A stretch of 64,000 nucleotides of DNA. Source: Actinomucor elegans. Taxonomy: Eukaryota > Mucoromycota > Mucoromycetes > Mucorales > Mucoraceae. Below are positions 632-38,282 of this stretch, in pieces. Location: contig JAMSLZ010000005.1 in the NCBI GenBank assembly GCA_026027325.1, positions 2,232,001 through 2,296,000 on the forward strand. The letters run 5' to 3'. Position 1 is the first letter of the stretch; every line of letters starts with the position of its first letter. The notes under the pieces were generated by a model. It saw nothing but the letters and a program-made list of their open reading frames with translations. It did not search any database and was not told the origin of the DNA. The position numbers and the translations under genes are program-made.

Positions 632-1441
632 TTATTTTTTTGAATAACCAGCACAGGTCCACATTATTAGCTTCCATACAATAGCTATGCCAGCCAATCC
701 AGCCACGACTATACCGCCGTAAAACATACCATCATGTAATACTTTACTACAAATAGTACCGCAAGCAGATTGGGCTTGTTCAATCATATCACCACATTGA
801 TTATTACATTTGTCGGAAACTATTTTGGCTGCAATCATTAGAGCAATACCAGCCGCCAGAAATGCGCAACTGATTAACAGACAAAAGAATGAACAGCATG
901 TGATAGCAGGATTATAGCAGCAGCAGCAGTTATTTCGTGGTTTTTCTTCATGTGGTCTATAGCGATAGGATTCAGGTTCGTTTTCAGGTGGTGGCATTGG
1001 TTTAGAAACAGCGTAGGTAGCAGTTGGAGCACCATAATACACGCCACTTGCTTCAGCTGCTTCGTGTTCCTTTTTGATCTTTTCAATTCTTTTTCGTTCT
1101 TTTCTACTTGGTTTTTGATCTGATGCCATCATGGGTATTTTCTCTTCTTCTTCTAGCTTGACTGATGAATTAGTTTGTAGAGGCACTGGTGATTGACTTT
1201 GTTTCAAGTATTCTTCTCGCTCTTGCCGTAAATATGAGTCTAATGGTTGATCATTTACACCTTGGATATGTCTTTCTTCGTCATTATAATAGGGCTCAGA
1301 TGGATAATAGGCATTGACTGGTGGATGAGCGATGGCTGGAGGAGGACTATACATATCATTATAATAAGGTTGTTCTGGTTCAAGTGGAGGAGGTGGAGGA
1401 TATTGTCCAGCAAAAGGATCACGACTGTTATTATTGTTCAT
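632..1441 (-). CDS. Pro/Tyr-rich membrane protein, two C-terminal TM segments
   Basis: I do not recognise a named family. The ATG at 1441 (MNNNNSRDPFAG) is preferred over a longer reading that would add a hydrophobic leader encoded by the T-rich upstream DNA, because a TATA-like box lies about 55 nt upstream. The 269-residue protein has a Pro/Tyr-rich N-terminal half with two PYYND repeats, a charged middle (KPSRKERKRIEKIKKEHEA), a run of four Cys followed by two more just before the first membrane segment, and a second hydrophobic segment near the end. The Cys run could be palmitoylated and the PPPPP/PxxY-like stretches could bind SH3 or WW domains; both are inferences. It lies 119 bp from the start of the zinc-cluster gene, same strand. 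No introns seen. Confidence 0.7.
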   Translation of the reverse strand: MNNNNSRDPFAGQYPPPPPLEPEQPYYNDMYSPPPAIAHPPVNAYYPSEPYYNDEERHIQGVNDQPLDSYLRQEREEYLKQSQSPVPLQTNSSVKLEEEEKIPMMASDQKPSRKERKRIEKIKKEHEAAEASGVYYGAPTATYAVSKPMPPPENEPESYRYRPHEEKPRNNCCCCYNPAITCCSFFCLLISCAFLAAGIALMIAAKIVSDKCNNQCGDMIEQAQSACGTICSKVLHDGMFYGGIVVAGLAGIAIVWKLIMWTCAGYSKK

Positions 1442-7942: not shown

Positions 7943-9558
7943 ATGAGTCAAAAGCCTCCCTCACCCTTCCTTGGTCAACAAAGGCCGAGATCTAATAGTG
8001 TCATCAGACTCAAATCAAGCCAAAATTCACCTGTACAGTCTCCAACACAACAGCAACTTCAACAACAGCAAAAACAAAACTTTAAGCGGTCAATGAGCGT
8101 CTCGGAAGGTCTTCACGTCAAATTACCTGTTCTTCATCACTCAGAATCAGCCGAAGCCTTTCCTTATTCTCCAATCTCGCAAACTACAACCAGCAATATA
8201 TGTCCATCTGAATCGAATTGGGCAAATAAATATGATGATTTCGATATTGGAAAGCCCATTGGTAAAGAAATCATTTCGAATTGGATCATTTTTCGAAAAA
8301 AAAAGTACTAATCAAGTTGGTATAGGTTATGGATCTTCAGCAGTTGTGTATGAAGCAGTATATAAACCATTGAAAAAGAGAGTAGCCATCAAAATGATTG
8401 ATCTGGATATGTTTGAACGTAATCAAATCGATGAGCTTAGGGTATTTATTATACAGCTTTACACTTTACAAATTGGCTAATCTCTATTTTAAAGCGTGAG
8501 ACTGCATTAATGGCCTTATCAAAGCATCCTAATGTTTTACGTGTGTATGGATCATTTGTGAATGGATCGAAATTGTATATTGTTACACCTTATTTAGCTG
8601 CCGGATCTTGCTTGGATATCATGAAAACTGCCTTTCCAGAAGGTCTTGATGAAATCTCAATTGCTACTATCCTTAGGCAGGCTTTAGAAGGTCTAATTTA
8701 TCTGCACAAAAACGGCCATATTCATCGTGACGTGAAAGCTGGTAATTTGCTAATGGATCAACAAGGCACTGTACTTTTAGCAGATTTTGGCGTATCTAGT
8801 TCTTTAACTGAAAACGGCGATGTTAGAAAAACATTTGTAGGTACACCTTGTTGGATGGCGCCTGAGGTTATGGAACAAGCTGGCTATGATTACAAAGCTG
8901 ATATTTGGAGTTTTGGCATTACGTCCTTGGAATTAGCTACAGGCCACGCTCCTTTTGCCAAGTTTCCTCCAATGAAAGTTCTTATGATGACTTTATCCAA
9001 TGCCCCACCTACGTTGGATAGAGAAGGTGGAAAACACAAGTATTCTAAAGCGTTTAAGGATATGATCGACAGTTGTTTACAAAAGGATCCAAGCAAAAGA
9101 CCTTCAGCAGAGAAACTCTTGACGTTTCCTTTTTTCAAACAAGCAAAAAAGAGAGACTATCTGATAAAGACCATCTTGTCCAATACTGTCCCCTTAGATC
9201 AAAGACCCCACAAAAAGGTACCTCAGAAGCATATCTCATTTGAAAGTACAGAACAATGGGATTTTGATACCCTCTCCGATGAAGAAGCAGATTCTCACCC
9301 CAAGAAGCCTGAAACGCCTAGCATCATCTCGCCAACTACTACACCGCTTGAACGTTCCAGATCAATGGTTCAGTTTGAGGATTGCCCTAAACCAGTACAT
9401 ATTGACAGAACAAAATCCACAAATGTATCACCCATTACATCAGATGTTGAGCCAATACCTGTGAAAAAGCATATTTCTTTTGGTGAAGCTGTGATAAGAG
9501 ATCCTCCACTTGGCCGAACGGTCATGTCACCTCTAGTGGAAAGCCCACCCCCTGTTAC

Positions 9559-9630
<72 letters not shown>

Positions 9631-11250
9631 AGCTCATGAGCCCATTCTTACTTCTACACCCATCGCTCAAACACCAGGTTCATCAGTCTCATTTGCAGCT
9701 ACACCTCCTGCATATGCTCCACCTGTATTGCATAGTGCACCTCTATCAAAAAAGTCAAGATTTGTAATAGAAGATGCCACACCTACTACACAACAGCTTC
9801 TTTCTGCAGAATCACCTTCTTCTGACTCACCCATTTCGAATGCATCTCCTGCTATTGATATTGAGAGTGTAGGTTTGGGTATATTGACCACGCCTTCTAT
9901 TCAGAACTCCAACACAATTCCTGGTGCAACAACTACCGCATCAGCAGGCGCACCTACCGTTGCTACCGTTGCTGCTAATGCTGCTGCTGTAGCTGCCAAT
10001 ATTAGTAACAACAGCAATACACTACAAGAAGGTGAGTTCAAAAAGGGTCGCTTCAGCGTAAATCAAACTCCCAATCGAGCTACCACGCCTGCTGTTGAAG
10101 AAGCCAGCTACATCAACTCTCCTTATGGTAACGAAAAGCCTACCCAACTCGAGTATAAACCCACACCAATGTCTCGTGCCGCCAGTCAAGACAGTTTCCA
10201 AGAACGCAAATCTCGCTTCGAAGTCAAGCATAGTAATACCAGCGGCACCAACATGCAAACACCAATTTCGGTCACCAGCACACCTATCGAACCAAACACA
10301 CCTATGCAAAGTCTACCTTTGACTCGCGAAAACTCCAACACATCGGCTTTATCACGCGATAGCTCTATGAATAACAGTAAGGTTAGCCGCTTTTCGATCG
10401 AGAAGCCAGAGGCAGCAGTTGTAGGGCCTTGCTGTGAGTTGCCAGCAGCTTTGGTATCAACTATGTCTCCCGAATGCCGTAAAAAGGGTAGGTTCGAGTT
10501 AACCGGAGGATCAAATACGCCTAGCGAATCAGGTGGAAGTAACAGACAGGATACATCCCACATGGATTCACCTCAGTCAACTGTAGCGCCTTCGCCTGCT
10601 ATTTCACCTTGTAGTTCATTATCAAGAGGGCAAGCACATCGCATTCTTGACTCTTCCATGTCACATATGGTGTATTCACACATGGAGTCTTTGATTAAAC
10701 AAACAGAAATTCAAAAGAATATGCTACATGATTTATTGGTGACAATGCCGTTAATATATGGAACCAACAGTAATAATAGTCCCCAAAGTATCCTAACCCG
10801 AAGTCGAACTATATCCGATAGTAAAAAACCTGCTTTTACTCATAATGAAGAAGTGTATCAAAAGTAAGTACTATGAGCTATGCGTATGGAAGAATTAAGG
10901 AAAATTAATCCTGCTCTGTAATTCCTAGGGCTCCTACTTCAAATCCGTCAACTAGTACCAACGTATCATCCTCTCTAACAAATGAGATTAATGTTACTAT
11001 TGAACATCTGCAACAGCTTCTTTTGAGCTCATCAAAAGAAAAAGAAAGATTAGCGAAAGAGAATGAAGAGCTGAGAAAGGAAGTGGATCGATTAAAAAAG
11101 AGTCAACAACAGCAGCAGCAGGGAAGTTTATTGAAGAAACCTTCAATAGAACCTTCTCAATACGACCAACAATCAGAAAAAACCTCTTCTATTGCGCCGG
11201 AAGCAACTAGTACAACAGCAAATACACATCAACAAGACAAGGCTTTGTAA
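7943..11250 (+). CDS. FRAY/OSR1-type Ste20 (GCK) kinase with RFxV-motif tail
   Basis: Exons 7943-8261, 8317-8441, 8495-10863 and 10929-11250 give 1044 residues. The first intron carries TACTAATCAAG, a textbook branch site and acceptor. The kinase domain (about residues 95-370) shows the glycine loop IGYGSSAVVYE, AIKMIDL with the catalytic Lys, HRDVKAGN, ADFGVSS and the activation segment TFVGTPCWMAPEVME, all close to animal SPAK/OSR1/Fray. A WDFDTLSDEE stretch after the kinase resembles the acidic PF1 region. The long tail is Ser/Thr/Pro rich with homopolymeric Thr and Ala runs, five RF-x-V/I/L motifs (RFVI, RFSV, RFEV, RFSI, RFEL) and a final coiled coil (SKEKERLAKENEELRKEVDR) before poly-Gln. 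I see no CCT/PF2 domain. Animal relatives control ion cotransporters and osmotic response downstream of WNK kinases; the fungal role is unknown. Confidence 0.93.
9556..9627 (+). repeat. Coding ACT and GCT triplet repeats (poly-Thr then poly-Ala)
   Basis: Inside the tail of the kinase an almost pure ACT repeat (9556-9597) runs directly into a GCT repeat (9598-9627), coding Thr and Ala tracts. Such arrays change length by slippage without shifting frame. Confidence 0.9.
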
Positions 11251-13115: not shown

Positions 13116-14629
13116 TCAAAGGCGACGGCGTGTATGAGGAACGTTTTCTTCTTTTTTTTCTTCCTGTTCAGATGTACTCCCACGACGACGCTTTTCTGAA
13201 GTTTTTTCCACTACGCCTAGACGATACGCAAAATCAACTTTACCAGATACAGATTCGTCATGCTCTACCTGAATCCATTTCACCTCTTTCATTCTAAACA
13301 ATTCAATGTATTCAGATGGTTTGAACCATAAAGGTAATATGTAATCTGTGCAATCTCCCTTCACTTGAACTTTCAACAATAAACATGTCAAAGTGGGTGA
13401 ATCTGAATAAGCTTTTATCATCACTTCCACTTCCGATCCAATATTCCCCACCGATATTGATTTGTTATTCAGAACCTTTTGAGATAGATATACGCTATCG
13501 CCGAAATAGATTGGCTGTTCTCCACCTGCATCTTTCCATTGTTGTGATTTCCTGTTCTTTTCTAGCTGGCTTTTAAAGATGGATTCGTACGCCTTTTGTA
13601 ATTGTTCAGTACATTGAGGTGATAACTTGATGATGGTAGCTGCTGGTAAAGGAAATAATTGCAATGGATGTGATGTACTATCCAAAGGATCCTCTTTTTC
13701 AACCAATTTCGAATTGTTCCACGTTAATCTCTGTTCCATCTTGCCATTCTTGATACCGTCTCGATGATGCGTGATCAAGGCTTTATTGTGTGTCTGGATG
13801 ATCTGTCGTATCACCAATTTTTCCCAATCCGGGTTATACTTGGGTCGAATACCGGGAACATACACAACATGGCCTTGATCTATTTGATGTTGGGAGGTAA
13901 GAACATCCAAATACTCTCTAAACCGTCTTACATGGGGCATACGGTCATCCCACATAGTAACATGATCGATGGAAGGTACATTGTGAATCAAGTTGAGTAT
14001 AAAGCAGGTTTTGAAGTGCATGGTGGATTTGAACACGGAGCTGGTCAAGTTGTATGCTAACTGATGCTTGCCTTGCATGACTTCCCAATGATGATCACTG
14101 ACAGACTCTGGATCAGGACGTAAACCTACCAAGTCGAACTGAAGTCCTTTGGCGTCGAGCATAGCTGGGATCAGGTGATGGAAAGGATGGAAACGGCGAC
14201 CTGTCAAAACGACTGTCATTGTTTCGGGATCTGCAATACATTGCCGTGCTTCATTTACGATATCTTCGTTCCAGAAGCCTTTCCAGGCGGATTTTTGCAA
14301 GTCCTCAAAAGGACCGAGATCAAGTGAACGAATGTCTCTCCACCAACCGGGACCATATACACTTTCGGTTGTAGCAACTCGGATAAGATTAGGGTGCCAT
14401 ATCGTAGGACTGAGTAGAGGCGAAAAAAATAAGGTGGAATCAAAATCAAAGATGGCTAATTTAGTTGGTTTTTTGGTTGAATGATTTGTATAAAAGTATG
14501 ATTTCTCGTATTGACGTTGAAGCACACCCTGAAGAATGACTTAATACAAATTTGCAGTGTTTGAGATTAGTTGCTTACCAATTCTTTCTCTGTGATTTCC
14601 TTGTAATTTGTTATCATTGAAAGTGGCAT
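13116..14629 (-). CDS. HAD-superfamily 'Swiss Army Knife' RNA repair-like protein
   Basis: Exons 14629-14579 and 14528-13116 give 487 residues. The start MPLSMITNYKEITEKEL comes from the short first exon; the intron ends in TTCTTCAG. Near residue 40 is KLAIFDFDSTLF, the D-x-D-S/T motif of the HAD fold, followed by IWHPNLIRVA and GPGWWRDIRSLDLG, then VVLTGRRFHPFHHLIP and, around residue 210, VTMWDDRMPHVRRF, which supplies the late acidic HAD motif. This arrangement matches the fungal HAD_SAK family, named from bacterial RNA-repair fusion proteins; a biochemical role is not established and I do not claim one. The C-terminal third is less conserved in appearance and ends in a Lys/Arg/Glu-rich tail. 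It lies downstream of the five-exon gene on the same strand. Confidence 0.82.
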
Positions 14630-29943: not shown

Positions 29944-30169
29944 CATTTTGTTTAATGAACCCTTTTCCTTTCTCTCTTTCTTTTTTTTTTCTTTGTTCCT
30001 ATATACTATTTTCTTTGTCTCTTCACTCCTTAATAATAATAAAATAAAAACCTTTTAGGTATATGCTTTATATGTGTATTTTATATTAAAATTAAAGAGG
30101 TAACAGACCGAGAAACTGGACTCGACGCTTGAAATTAACCTTCTCACAGCATAGTATAATACATCAATA

Positions 30170-33100
30170 ATGAAGTGGTTACCTTTACCCAAAATCGCTC
30201 ATGGTATAGCCATATATCCTTTCTCTCCTTCAAATCTACTGCAACAGCAGCAAAAAACTCAACAAAGACCCAGTTCTACTATCTCTTCTTCGGGTGTTTT
30301 ACAAAGCGACGACGCTTCTATTTATACAAACACCTCATCATCTTCATTACTCGACCAAAATTCATCAATCTCGATCAATTCAGACGATTACAGCCACCTT
30401 ATCTCACTAGAAGTAGGCGACGAACTATTTATTATTGAGCAACAAGGTCAATGGTACCGAGGTTATGTTCTTTCTACATTAGAAGAAGGTCGGAAACCAA
30501 ACAAGGCTCCCATTGGTTGCTTTCCTCGATCTCATGTGCAGATCAAGGAGTATATTGACATTACATTGGACGAATCCGACACTACACTCATTTATCCTCG
30601 ACGTCGAGAGATCTCGTCCGAAAGTCGGCCGATTTCTGATATTCCAAGCGGGTTACCTCGATCTTTCTCAGAGTCGTATATTCAACAACAGTACACAGTC
30701 AATGAAACGGGTCGTCCCGGTAGCTTTGGTGACTTGAATTTCGATTTTGACAGTAGCAGTAACAAAAAGGTTGCATCGTCTGTGCTGCGTATACCCCCTC
30801 CTCCTTTGCCTTTGGCTCGATTTGACCAATCAACTATCACTGGTAACTCTGAACCTCTTGTAGATGAAATCGCTGCTTGCGTCAGTGAATGGAACAGCCT
30901 ACTATACACGTATATCAATCAACGCCAATACACCACGTTTAATACTGTACGAGACAATATCAACTACCTGTTTCAGGCCCGTAGACAACTTCTAGATCAA
31001 GCTTTATCTAGAGAGGAACTGGTTAAGCTAAGAAAAGAGATTATACATAAGATGGTGACCAGTAACTTGGATCAAAACCAGCAAATGATAGTGCGTCACC
31101 CTGAGAAAGGTTATCTGTTAGACGCGACAAATGCCTCTCTTAGTACAATCTATCGCATGCACTGGAAATATGCCACTCATACTATACACGCGGATGGAAC
31201 TAGCTCAACCTCATCGTCTTCTTCTCTTCCTAATAATAATGGAAGTACTACGCCTACTTTAATGATGGACTTTGAAGGCACTTCTACAAATAGTAGTACG
31301 ACTACCACTACTTCGAATGCAACTGCAACCAATTTAACCAATATTTCAACCACTTCAGTCCCTACCATTGCTCCAATACAACAGCAACAACAACAGCAGC
31401 CCAAAGGAGCCAAGTTCCATCATTTATTCTTTGAATTAAAAGCTTGCGTCGCTCATATCTGTCAGCCTGGTGAATTGACTGAGCTATACTTTAGTTTATA
31501 CTCTGCTATTGATCGCAAATTCCTTACTGAACAGTTTGTCGTGATTCTCAACTACAACGGTATGCCAAAAGATGAAACACAGATAGGCAAACTGCAAACG
31601 CTCTTTGTCGATCTTTCCTCGCACGACATGTCCGATGACCTCTACATAGTATGCCAGGTTATTCGATTAGGGGGCATGAAGTTTAGTGATAGTAACAAGG
31701 ATCACTTTGGCAGTATAGGATCGCATACCTCCCAGTTTTTTCATTCCAACAAGCACATCACCCCATCTTACCTAAACAAACCTTCCACTACGCACATGTG
31801 CCGTAGACCCTTTGGATGTGCAGTACTAAAACTGAACGCATCTGTGCTTCAGCAACACAGCGCAGATATTGAAGCAGTAGAACACGATATGCCTATTTAT
31901 ACTGCTGTATCTGAATCCAATTTTACGGAATTGCATGAAAATATCATTTTCAATCATACAAAGGATTTCACCAAGCACCCGCGAGCAGAGATGTTGCGTG
32001 TATCTATGCGCACTTATTTTGGTTACTTGGAATCCGTACTCAAAACTAACGCTGCTCTGTTACAAGATGTCCCTCATACCTTACGCATGGGATTTGCTGA
32101 TGTTGCGTTCCCCGATGACAGTCGAAACGATTTGTATGTCAAACTCGAAATGGGTGATTTAACACAGTTTAGCCGATCACGCAATATTCAAGTGACCATG
32201 TGTGTACGTGATAACAAGACAGGTGAGGTGATTAAGAATGCTATCTCGATCGGTGCTGGTACAAGGCCAATCAGTTACTGGGAGAGTATGATCATGTATC
32301 ATGAGCAAAGACCCAAGTGGGGTGAAACTATCAAGGTACATATGGAAGATGTGCATCAATGGGAGCGATCGCACATCTATCTTACTATCAAACATCGCAG
32401 TAGCAGCTTTAATGGCACAGGCAATGCGTCACCTATGCTCAAATTCAATAACAGTGGTCCAGGTGCAGCCAGTAGTGATTACTCGCCAGGCAGTTCAACC
32501 TCTGTCGTATCTGCTACTTCAGGTGGCGCTGAAAAGATTATTGCCATGGGCTTTCTGCCTCTATTTCTACCACCGTTACATCGTGATTTCGTAGCAGATG
32601 GGTCTCATACATTGCACTTGTACAAATTTGATCGTCAATCTTCTTTACCTCGTTACTACCTGGATAATACACCTTGGTGCGCCCGATCCACTGCACCTTC
32701 CAATACGGCTCAACAAGGTGTTGATTTCTTTTCAAAACGCAATTATCGAAACAATAACAACAGTGGTAGTCGTGTAAGTGGACATAATTATTCACCTTCA
32801 ACCCATAGTTTCAAAAGTTTCGGTTCAGCTGCCACTACAACCGCTTCCAGTAGTGCGAATGATATTGCTACTTTGGCTTCTTCCTCTTTACAACAGCAGC
32901 AACAATCAAGCCCTAGTAAACTTGTCTTGTTACGCGATACCATCACTTTATCTACGTTCCTGTGTTCCAACAAATTTACCCAAAACAAAACGCTTGTGAA
33001 GTTATTAAATTGGCACACGTTGATGGAAGGCAACGAAGACGGTACAGCTGAATTGCTCGCTGTACTGGATCAATTCACCTTTGTTGGTGAAGTGGAAGTT

Positions 33101-36100
33101 GTAAAGTTCTTGGGTGATATCTTTGATGCGTTATTAGATATACTGGCTTATCCACATGATGAAGATCATGATGATCATAGTGAGCTTCTTTGTAGAGAAA
33201 TCAATGATCAAGTCTTGGCTGCTATCATTTGGTTATTAGGCATTGTTCAAGACCGTCGATTCAGTAATTTTCGTCCTGTGCTTGATGTATATATCGAAAA
33301 CCGTTTCTCTATTCAGGACTATGAGCGTAATCTATACAAGAAAGGCGAAATACTCAACTATAGCTACCGTGTTGCGCCCGACTTGACATTTGAACATTTG
33401 ATAAAGAGTTTAACGCGTCTATGTCAAAACCCTGGAGATGCGTCAAAAGCCAAAATATTGCGAAGCAGTATGAAAGTATGGGATTATCTCTTTCGCTTCA
33501 TTGTTCGATCGCGTTTGACACAACAGCTTAAAGAAGACGATGAAGAGCGTTTGGAGAATGATCGTGCTTTCAAAGGCGATATAGAACAGTTGCTGCAAGC
33601 GATTACATCCATCATGAGCCCTTCTCAACCAAGCTCCATGATTGGTACTCAAACATTGGCACTTCAACACTTTGCTGACATCCTGGTCGAGCTGCATAAA
33701 ATCTTTTTACCCCAGCAAGTGGTGGAAATAGCAGTGATGTTTGTAGATGCTTGTTCTCATGTCACAGGCCGATTGGTTGGGTTCAAATTGGCCATGATCC
33801 TTCATATTGTAAAAGGCCCTACCTTTGATGATCCTTCCTGCAGACTCGAATTGGCCAAGAACGTGTTTCGTTGGATTCGTGTCTGGGTCAATTCTTACAT
33901 GGTCACTGCAAAAGATGTGATTTTTGCGCGTCAATCAGAACAACTTGAATCCACCACGCAGCAGCAAATACGAGTGCCTCGATCTCAATGGATTGAAAAT
34001 CTGAGACTGTCATTAACTATCATTAGTGAGGTGTTGGATAGAGTGAGGAAATCTTGCGGTATGACTTCATCCGGTCTAACATCGTCTTGTATCTCCTCAC
34101 CATCCTTCAGTAACTATTCTCGGCCTACATCTTTTGCAGCTGCAACTAATGTTGAAGATGACAACCAATTCAATCATGATTATTCGCAGACAGATATAGG
34201 CATGATCACTGAAGTAGCGCTTCAGCTAGTACCTCAGTTATTGAATGCCTATAAAGATATTCAGCGACTGACAATGCAAGCTATGCACGTACCCACCTCG
34301 CCTTCTGCTGCAGTGGATGGTTATATCACTAGTCCTGGCAGTATTTTAACCCATAATTCAAGACCGCATTCAAGACAATCATTTAGTATTTTGAGAGAAA
34401 GAGCAAGTTCTCTTGGTGGCGGCTCTAAAAACCCGCTAATGTCTCCTGAGATTTTGCAAGAGATCCAAAGCCTCAAAAATACTTCTGTAGTCAATGTCAA
34501 TGCTAGTAATGGTGTCGCTAATACTAGCAGTGGTGCAAGCATCAGTGGCGTTGGATCTGGTAGCAGCGGTATCAATATCAGTTCGAATGCTTCTTTGTTC
34601 AATGCTTCAGGTATCAATAGTCCTGGTGCTTCGTCAATGCATGCCAACAGTAGTGGTATCAGCACTAGCAATGCTAACAGTAGTGCATCGGCTTTTACTG
34701 TAGTGCTTCAGGCTCTATCTACTTCGCCTACAACGCCTTTTCCAAGTACGTATCCTTTCCAACCATCGACTCGAACTATCAACACCACGCCAGGTTTGAC
34801 TAGCGACTATGCAGCCATGATCAGTACAGGTCTATTGGACCTCACTGTGGTCTTTTTGGAGCTTTTCTATTTGACGCCCAGACAGCAATGGATCCAGTTT
34901 ATCAAAAAGATGAAGGAACAAGATGGCGTGACTCAGACAGCCGACTTTTTACGTAAGATGGTGTATACTTGCATGGCTATTCTTTTCGGTGATAGCGTCC
35001 ATACATTGGAGGAATCAAGCCTGACTGTAGACGGCATGGCAAAGTGTGAAGAGGATGAATCTCGGGAAAGACGCAAGTTGCCTTCCATTTGGCTCAACCT
35101 GGACACCATTTCACACCGAATTGTCATGTGTCATATCCTGGAACCCATCAAAACCATTTTTGAAATGAACGCTTTTATACCTACTGAAAAGGCTTACATG
35201 TCCCCCAACAATAACAGCATGGTGGTGGATGATTATGCAGACTCAATCAAAGGAAGACAAAGATCTACATCTTTACCTACCATGGACGAAGAAAGCTCTT
35301 CTACCACGTCGTTCAAAGAACCACCCACTTCCAATCTAGCTATAGATGAGAACAAGATCATTGAAGAGCAGAAATCAACCTTGCTATTATGGCGCATTTA
35401 CTTTGTGGGCTTCTTGCGCGTCGTAGGCAGTCCCAAACTAGAGATATCTGAATTCATGCCTCAAGTACAACGCGCAGTATGGAAGATCATTGGCAATATG
35501 CGTGGTGAAGTTGGTGCCAAGGTGTTCTTATCTTTATGGAACTTGGCTGGCAAGCATGTCCCTACTCATAGCCGCGTCGGTGAATACGAAGACCTCAATA
35601 AATCAATCCAGACCTTGACAGATTATTTTGGCAGTAGTAGTAACAGCGACTTCGGTACTAGTCATGCTCTGAACAGCAATACGCATTCTCCCATATCTGT
35701 TCCTGATCATCACAATAGCTATTTCCTCGCTCCAGATGACTCAGTTCGCAAAAGTATGGCTTCTATTGAAGAAGTGGATGATGACGATCATGAATTCGAT
35801 ACCAATACTATACCAACAAGCGCTATGAGCGCATATTCTGTTCGTAGCAGTGTGCGCATCGGCCCTACTGACGAGCTTCCCTTGACTTCTATTCATGAAG
35901 AGCACTTTTCCGATGAAATGCATTCTGAAGTTTCTTTCTTGCAAGCAGACTTGGCTTATTTTATTCTGAGCTCTGTTTGTGCAGCTAGTTTGACTTTACA
36001 TGATCGTGTGCGCATCAATGCTCTCTCTGTCATTGCTGATATCATTGCGATTGAATTGTATTCGTTTGGTGAGCTTTGCCATGTTCAACATGCACTTATT

Positions 36101-38282
36101 AGCACCTTGGACCGTTTGGTCATGTCTGAAAACAAGGGAGATGAAGCCATCTGTGCTCGTATTACAGTTGAACTTGATGCTGCTTTGGAACAACGCCTGC
36201 AAATAGATCATAGGACAGACTTGCTCATTACCGGTAAAAGGGCTGTTGATTCCTTATGTCGATTCTTGAGCCTTTTGCTTCAAATACGTAGTTTGCCGGT
36301 GGACGATGATGAATTCATGGATGAACGTATTACTTCTACGCTCAAGCTAATGAAATTTATTCAAGTCATTGAAAGAGAAGAAATATACATCAAGTATGTA
36401 CATCAATTGGTACAGCTCCATCTTGACAGTCGCAACTTTATTGAAGCCGCTTTGACTTTGCGATTTCATGCTGATTTATTGCAATGGGATCCAAGTGATA
36501 AACTTGTCGATATTCCAGAGCTATCCTTGCCAATACAGAGCTCGTTCAGCCGAAAGGAAGGCCTTTACATGAAGATGATCACTTATTTGGATCAAGGCAG
36601 CGCTTGGGAGCTCTGTGTAGACATTTGTAAAGAACTGGCTTATCAATATGAAACTACGCTATATGATTATACCAAGCTAGGCGAGATCTTGCAACGACAA
36701 GCTACTTTTGCAGAGAATATAGTCAAGAAAGAGCGTTGCTTTACAGAATACTTTCGTGTGGGCTTCTATGGCCGTGGTTTCCCTGCTAGCAATCGTAATC
36801 GACAGTACATTTATCGTGGTTTGGAATGGGAAAAGATGGCTTCCTTTGTAGAGAGAATGCAAAATAGACATCCTAATGCTCAGCTACTTCCCAGCAAAAT
36901 AGCCAACTCAATATCGATTACAGATGATCAACTCAAAGAACTCAATAGCACTTTGGATGGACAGTATCTTCAAATCACTTCAGTCACACCAATTCCCGAC
37001 ACAGATGAGATACCTTGTCTTTCAAATCCTAATGCACCTGATAGCGTCAAGAAGTACTATTCTTTCAATAACGTATCAAAGTTCTCATTCAGCCGACCTG
37101 TTACCAAAGAAGGCGCTTCGGATAAAGCGGATGAATCTAGTAAACCAGAATCTGACTTTTTAAACTTGTGGACCGAGAAAGTCGACTTTGAATGTGAAGA
37201 CAAGTTCCCAACCATTGTTCGCAGATCCAAGATCATAAGCTCACATGCAAGTGTTATTTCTCCTATTGAAAACGCTGTAACTGCTATGGAAAACAAGAAC
37301 AAGGAACTGATTTCATTGGAAAAGAAGTACTCTGCCCTTATCCCCAAGAGTACCCGTCATTACACGAGTATGACTCAGCCTCTTAATATCAATCCATTCT
37401 CCATGTCTTTGAATGGCGCAGTAGACGCCCCCGTAAACGGTGGTGTTCCCTTGTACAAAAAGGCATTCTTGAGTAAAGAATATTGGGAAAAGAACCCTGA
37501 TATGCGGCACTGGATCCAAAGGTTACAGACTGCAATATATGATCAGGTAAACATACCAAAGCCAAATTAATATAATCTGGGTATTCACATCTTACTATTA
37601 CACACATAGGTTTTGATTATCAAAAAATGTCTTGAAACGCACAACAAGCTTGTCAGTAATGAAATGAGACCTTTCCACACAACACTGACCGAATGTAAGC
37701 TGAGAGATCCAAACTATGTTTAGGCTTTAGCTGACCCTTTATATATATATATATATATATCTAGTTTTCCATAAAAACTTTGCAGAAGAAATCAAGCTAC
37801 TCAAAGAAAAGCCCAACAAAGAAGAAATGAAGGAAAAGTTGGCTCTCTCAATCACTACCAACTCGGTTAATCGTCGTCGTTCCACCATGTCCAGTGCAAC
37901 CGATAACAGTAGCATGTACAATCAACAGCACTTGGAAGAGAGAACAACTTCACCTAGCCATTCACGTCAAAACACCATCAGTTCTCATCATAGTCAAACG
38001 CCTGGCATAGGCGGTGTACCGGTATTGCCTGCCCTGCCTGTGATGTCCCCCATCAGTCGTGCATTCTCGATTCGAACACCTGTGACCGAGAATTCGCCAG
38101 GTTTACCTCCCATCGCGGCTTTTCATAGTAATGCTGCGTTTGAGAGTGCTACCATGTCTAGAGCAGAGAGTTTGTCGCGCTCTCTAAAGATGACGCTTCG
38201 TAAAAAGTCGCGCAAAAAGTCTCAGAGTGCTGGTAGTGTCAATACAATTAATCCTAACACTACCACTGGTAGCAAACCATAA
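30170..38282 (+). CDS. DOCK-family guanine nucleotide exchange factor (very large)
   Basis: Exons 30170-37546, 37610-37694 and 37765-38282 give 2659 residues, long for the family. The N-terminus contains an SH3-like domain interrupted by about 55 Ser/Gln-rich residues: HGIAIYPFSPSN before, ISLEVGDELFIIEQQGQWYRG and GCFPRSHVQI after. A C2-like DHR-1 region (about residues 640-830) includes MGFADVAFPDDSRNDLYVKL, IGAGTRPISYWESMIMY and RPKWGETIKV. Low-complexity Ser/Asn/Thr/Gln inserts lie near 345-410, 880-930 and 1440-1560. DHR-2, the catalytic part, lies at about 2040-2440 with KEGLYMKMITYLDQG, GFYGRGFPASNRNRQYIYRG and SFVERMQNRHPNAQLL. The tail is basic and Ser-rich. DOCK1-like proteins with ELMO activate Rac; in yeast Dck1-Lmo1 acts on Rho5. 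An ELMO partner is expected elsewhere. Confidence 0.95.
37739..37762. repeat. (AT)n tract in the last DOCK intron
   Basis: Ten AT units directly upstream of the CTAG acceptor at 37764. Confidence 0.85.

Follow-up and report, generated by a model that had tools for sequence, protein, structure and literature searches.

The window, a stretch of 64,000 nucleotides of the Actinomucor elegans genome (contig JAMSLZ010000005.1, forward strand positions 2,232,001 to 2,296,000), contains a gene for a FRAY/OSR1-type Ste20 kinase whose C-terminal tail carries five RFx[VIL] motifs in one frame of one predicted gene. The array probably consists of R-phi (RFxV-type) peptides that dock on the CCT-like domain (CCTL1) of the fungus's own WNK kinases, with a polarity opposite to that of animals. 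Of the docking rules in the WNK-SPAK/OSR1 pathway the contact between CCT and RFxV is the best known, and in animals the CCT socket is found on SPAK/OSR1 and the hooks on WNK. In the fungal proteins CCTL1 is found on WNK and the hooks on FRAY; no CCT was detected in the FRAY homologues and no conserved hooks in the WNK homologues, which are nearly hook-free. The two docking halves are therefore on opposite proteins from those in animals. This placement of the socket on WNK and the hook array on FRAY is well supported by the sequence comparisons, and the two would be expected to bind.

RFx[VIL] motifs in the FRAY tail

The kinase domain is, judged by sequence, of the FRAY/OSR1 type, with SPAK/OSR1 nearest among the Ste20 kinases. 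Compared by sequence with solved structures, the exon 3 protein (P0001) matched SPAK (5d9h, E 7.8e-81) and OSR1 (2vwi, E 1.7e-76) best, well ahead of STK24/MST3 (E 6.9e-62). Five such motifs on a kinase of this type had been reported in the initial annotation and were found again, all in frame, with its positions correct to about 10 bases.

Conservation of the motifs was assessed in two sets of homologues. The first set comprised the best 120 homologues listed, from which 109 tails were cut after the kinase domain and 11 were dropped because the script found no boundary. These tails contain 509 RFx[VIL] motifs, while 11.7 are expected when each tail is shuffled. The wider sample, obtained with a shortened query, added 116 proteins with 225 motifs counted against 6.25 expected. 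The array adds to the whole-protein score by which the 120-row homologue lists were ranked, but the candidates had been collected by word matches in residues 1 to 500, upstream of the array. Pooling gave 236 proteins, 191 with a tail of at least 200 amino acids and 45 without, 11 of the latter for want of a boundary. The 191 tails hold 770 RFx[VIL] motifs, compared with 2 of the reversed [VIL]xFR, 8 KFx[VIL], 6 RYx[VIL] and 24 RLx[VIL], and in 53 RF pairs V, I or L is replaced by another residue. Two or more motifs were found in 182 of the 191 tails, one in 8 and none in one (P0324). The motifs in FRAY tails are above chance, and the slots are in order. The initial annotation had named motif-free or randomly arranged orthologues, or a CCT domain hidden in the same protein, as findings that would speak against it; the orthologues instead retain the motifs in order, and no hidden CCT domain was found by profile in the FRAY homologues or in the model of one orthologue.

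In sequence terms the array motifs have the R-phi/RFxV shape, that is RFx[V/I] with a small residue before R, conserved and in a context predicted to be disordered. The last position is V or I in 624 of the 770 motifs and L in 146. Basic residues are frequent upstream, with K or R at position -3 in 735 motifs and often also at -2, which is what would be expected if the repeats were basic/aromatic patches binding membranes or nucleic acids. This explanation is scarcely plausible, however, because charge alone would not need the other constraints: the R before F is rarely K, S or G precedes the R in 758 motifs, V, I or L is found at +2 from F, and slot order is kept.

The order of slots is kept in Mucorales, Umbelopsis and Mortierella relatives, with the signatures K[KR]SRFV[IV], KGRFSV, RKSRFE[VI], SRFS[VI] and KKGRFEL or KRSRFQV. 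One to three slots are absent in some members (two motifs in P0091 and P0097, three in P0052 and P0071). When the 8-residue windows of the tail are ranked by conservation in an alignment of 52 proteins, all five slots come in the top seven, together with a WDF motif and the segment immediately preceding it. For one full-length orthologue, P0015, the AF2 model consists of the kinase domain, a low-confidence unstructured tail and a single helix at residues 715-743.

The array is also found outside these groups, in a sampling that did not take in Dikarya, animals and plants. Motif counts were 3 in Paraglomus, 4 in Funneliformis, 3 and 2 in Acaulospora and 1 in Gigaspora, which we assign to Glomeromycotina; 5 in Rhizophlyctis, 4 in Synchytrium, 3 in Physocladia and 4 in Chytriomyces, presumably all chytrids; 2 in Sorochytrium (taken as Blastocladiomycota); 4 in Entomophthora and 2 in Dimargaris (taken as Zoopagomycota); and 2 in the presumed aphelid Amoeboaphelidium (P0338). 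Many short or partial entries among the 116 additional proteins, including those of Basidiobolus, Conidiobolus and Gonapodya, have scant or no tail and are motif-free, and a few zeros are due to boundary failure. A tail of at least 200 residues is present in 71 of the 116, of which 62 have at least two motifs, 8 have one and 1 has none.

Two KHISF motifs upstream of the array had been suggested to be related to it. They probably do not belong to it, because the second, which is conserved, is of the RV[ST]F type and resembles motifs that dock protein phosphatase 1 (PP1). Of the 191 tails, 149 have the pattern [RKH]x[VI][ST]F upstream of their first RF motif; shuffled stretches give 2.5 on average, and the reversed pattern gives 0. 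The equivalents of the second KHISF, such as KKHISF here and RTVTF in Mortierella relatives, occupy a single conserved place and by sequence look like the RVxF docking motif of PP1; this putative site is distinct from the RF array. It could recruit a phosphatase that resets the activation loop. That the array itself is recognised by a phosphatase or another non-CCT adaptor, with KHISF in the same system, would agree with this frequency but is very improbable: RFx[VIL] is outside the RVxF consensus, the two motif types are conserved separately, and PP1 docking accounts for KHISF and not for the RF slots.

CCT domains and the probable WNK partner

The absence of a visible CCT on the kinase, noted in the initial annotation, agrees with the searches made. 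OSR1_C, the animal-type C-terminal CCT, gave no Pfam match at E up to 1 in the exon 3 product, is missing from the domain assignments precomputed for the FRAY homologues listed and is not among the 25 commonest Pfam families shown for 52 and for 41 of them. A profile of the fungal CCTL1 run against the 236 FRAY homologues, short and uncut tails included, gave nothing better than E 6.4. No hidden CCT domain is seen in the predicted P0015 model, where the tail is predicted to be disordered except for one helix. By these searches the fungal FRAY homologues appear to lack the animal-type domain.

A separate CCT-like protein, one of the two possibilities put forward in the initial annotation, is supported by sequence matches in the same genome. 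Seven CCT-type matches were obtained genome-wide, six of them within four WNK kinase genes and the seventh weak; these are all the WNK genes of the genome and each has CCTL1 pieces. The putative WNK partner at locus L001 is closest by sequence to WNK3/WNK1. It has the WNK hallmark of a catalytic Lys on the glycine-loop strand with the usual strand-3 Lys replaced, and the LGKGAYK...EVAWN columns are nearly invariant in an alignment of 44 rows. CCTL1 sits directly behind the WNK kinase domain and in L001, where it spans 1444-1713 on the minus strand, reaches 26.0 bits against OSR1_C (cut-off 22.4). OSR1_C was matched at E up to 1 in all 44 WNKs scanned, many of these matches possibly being below the cut-off. 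A profile built from the 44 CCTL1 domains matches all 120 WNK homologues listed, and a stricter pattern 118 of them. The predicted fold of the fungal domain resembles that of the human WNK CCT-like domains, one of which has been solved with an RFxV peptide. The acidic pair (D/E) presumed to bind the Arg is invariant in the 120 listed homologues. RFx[VI], the hook by which animal WNKs recruit SPAK/OSR1, was not found in any of these 120; RFx[VIL] occurs in two, both ending in L.

At their C-terminal end the fungal WNKs share a conserved stretch, NQDIMTVGDLRDLHDEDWAGIGLTVFALRALKNML (L001 exon 3, 765-1066, minus strand), which by eye resembles a SAM-type fold; no Pfam family was found for it.

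Both halves occur together. At least four FRAY genes are present in the genome, with 5, 4, 2 and 5 motifs read frame by frame; the three paralogues were read without gene models, and the one with two motifs is located in L034. Matching by eye gave 39 species names common to the FRAY and WNK homologue lists. Across eukaryotes FRAY "usually co-occurs with Wnk" (PMC3218828).

These data also bear on the explanation that CCTL1 is mainly autoinhibitory or serves other R-phi proteins, that FRAY meets WNK elsewhere and that the array scaffolds another partner. In animals CCT domains and R-phi motifs pair combinatorially and with some redundancy (PMC12266109), and four WNK and at least four FRAY genes allow many possible pairings. 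This explanation is nevertheless unlikely, as WNK genes account for six of the seven CCT-type matches of the genome, the remaining one being weak, and no other domain taking RFxV was found in searches made with OSR1_C, CCTL2_WNK, TSC22 and the CCTL1 query only.

Probable docking on WNK and comparison with known systems

Animal WNK is controlled by osmolarity and chloride, and in animals WNKs are known to act upstream of FRAY kinases as their partners. If the array docks on CCTL1, WNK would recruit FRAY through these contacts and then phosphorylate its conserved activation loop, TFVGTPCWMAPEV. The loop residues T F V G T P C W M A P E V are invariant in 52 of 52 aligned FRAY homologues, and we take the Thr to be the predicted WNK target, corresponding to OSR1 T185. 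The activation step, like an osmotic or chloride trigger, is suggested by analogy with animals. Avidity would arise from the multiple hooks on each FRAY chain, whose number coiled coils at the C terminus might double, and one FRAY could gather several WNKs. Coiled coils were seen by eye in both WNK and FRAY. The initial annotation had set reversed polarity against a multivalent scaffold; these are not alternatives, because the array can itself be the WNK-binding surface.

The fungal system shares with the animal pathway a FRAY/OSR1-class kinase, a WNK-class kinase, the CCT fold, RFx[V/I] peptides and a gene for MO25, which is present in the genome. The WDF motif we regard as a candidate WEF-type MO25 contact, near the position of the acidic Trp-rich segment in animal OSR1.

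The contact between CCTL1 and R-phi peptides is itself already known in human WNKs, where PMC12266122 and PMC12266109 describe CCTL1 taking R-phi peptides with TSC22D as partner. In the NRBP1/TSC22D complex, the R-phi motifs of TSC22D lie in disordered sequence ahead of a dimerising helix (PMC12266122). The fungal FRAY tail is likewise an array followed by a predicted helix, but in the fungi it is the downstream kinase that bears the R-phi motifs. No TSC22 match was found in the genome, a weak test as no control genome came over the cut-off either. The physiological role of WNK CCTL1 is called unclear in PMC12266122 (2025) and elusive in PMC12266109 (2025). WNKs in fungi outside Dikarya are mentioned in PMC10301571, and a link of fungal WNKs to FRAY arrays was not found in the open PMC literature searched. 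As far as that literature shows, a FRAY with no detectable CCT and with a conserved hook array opposite a hook-less, socket-bearing WNK is new.

The fungal wiring may tentatively be seen as early and perhaps ancestral for the WNK-FRAY pair, with the animal wiring later and the CCTL1 of animal WNKs, itself puzzling, a relic adopted by TSC22D adaptors, although this is somewhat doubtful. In the proteins sampled the array half ranges from Mucoromycota to chytrids and an aphelid, and the WNK half is confined to Mucoromycotina and Basidiobolus. If the swapped docking is true, it would show that two kinases can stay paired while socket and hook trade places between them. The fungi would then offer a simple setting for studying WNK CCTL1 function, and an osmotic-signalling module open to testing outside Dikarya.

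Gene model and other genes in the window

The FRAY-type kinase gene (7943-11250, plus strand) is predicted to consist of four exons separated by GT..AG introns, with a product of 1041 amino acids (Table 1). Several full-length homologues align with the spliced protein across 93-99% of its length. A leucine-zipper-type Pfam match (HALZ, E up to 1) was obtained in 24 of 52 FRAY homologues.

Table 1. Positions of the FRAY-type kinase gene features in the window
Feature	Position	Strand	Basis and remarks
Predicted exon 1	7943..8261	+	ATG at 7943; frame and GT..AG intron; homologue coverage
Predicted exon 2	8326..8441	+	Frame/splice reading
Predicted exon 3	8495..10863	+	Bulk of kinase domain and entire motif array; Pfam Pkinase at exon 3 residues 1-214
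Predicted exon 4	10929..11250	+	Stop at 11250; homologues cover up to 99% of protein
Ste20 FRAY/OSR1-type kinase domain	8230..9136	+	Two introns within; start approximate, by eye
First KHISF	9227..9241	+	Weakly conserved; immediately upstream of WDF
WDF motif	9257..9265	+	W and F invariant in 52/52 aligned homologues
Second KHISF	9467..9481	+	Conserved [RKH]x[VI][ST]F, PP1-docking-like RVxF motif
Slot 1, KKS-RFVI	9758..9769	+	Residue 567; sequence and homologue conservation
Slot 2, KKG-RFSV	10049..10060	+	Residue 664; sequence and homologue conservation
Slot 3, RKS-RFEV	10214..10225	+	Residue 719; sequence and homologue conservation
Slot 4, KVS-RFSI	10388..10399	+	Residue 777; sequence and homologue conservation
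Slot 5, KKG-RFEL	10490..10501	+	Residue 811; sequence and homologue conservation
Predicted helix 3' of array	10655..10750	+	By-eye equivalent of P0015 residues 715-743; position approximate
Leucine-rich, coiled-coil-like stretch, exon 4	10984..11105	+	By eye, approximate; no confident helix there in P0015 model

An endonuclease/exonuclease/phosphatase domain (PF03372) is listed in four FRAY proteins of the Mortierella group (P0092, P0095, P0096 and P0106; 1303-1425 residues). Its presence with FRAY in one predicted protein reflects either a genuine fusion or misjoined gene models.

Two further genes were noted in the window. A HAD domain (PF10307, Swiss Army Knife RNA repair type) is encoded on the minus strand at 13116-14540. 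A single open frame at 30155-37570 encodes a DOCK-family exchange factor of 2471 amino acids with DOCK_N, C2 and TPR matches and three DHR-2 lobe matches.
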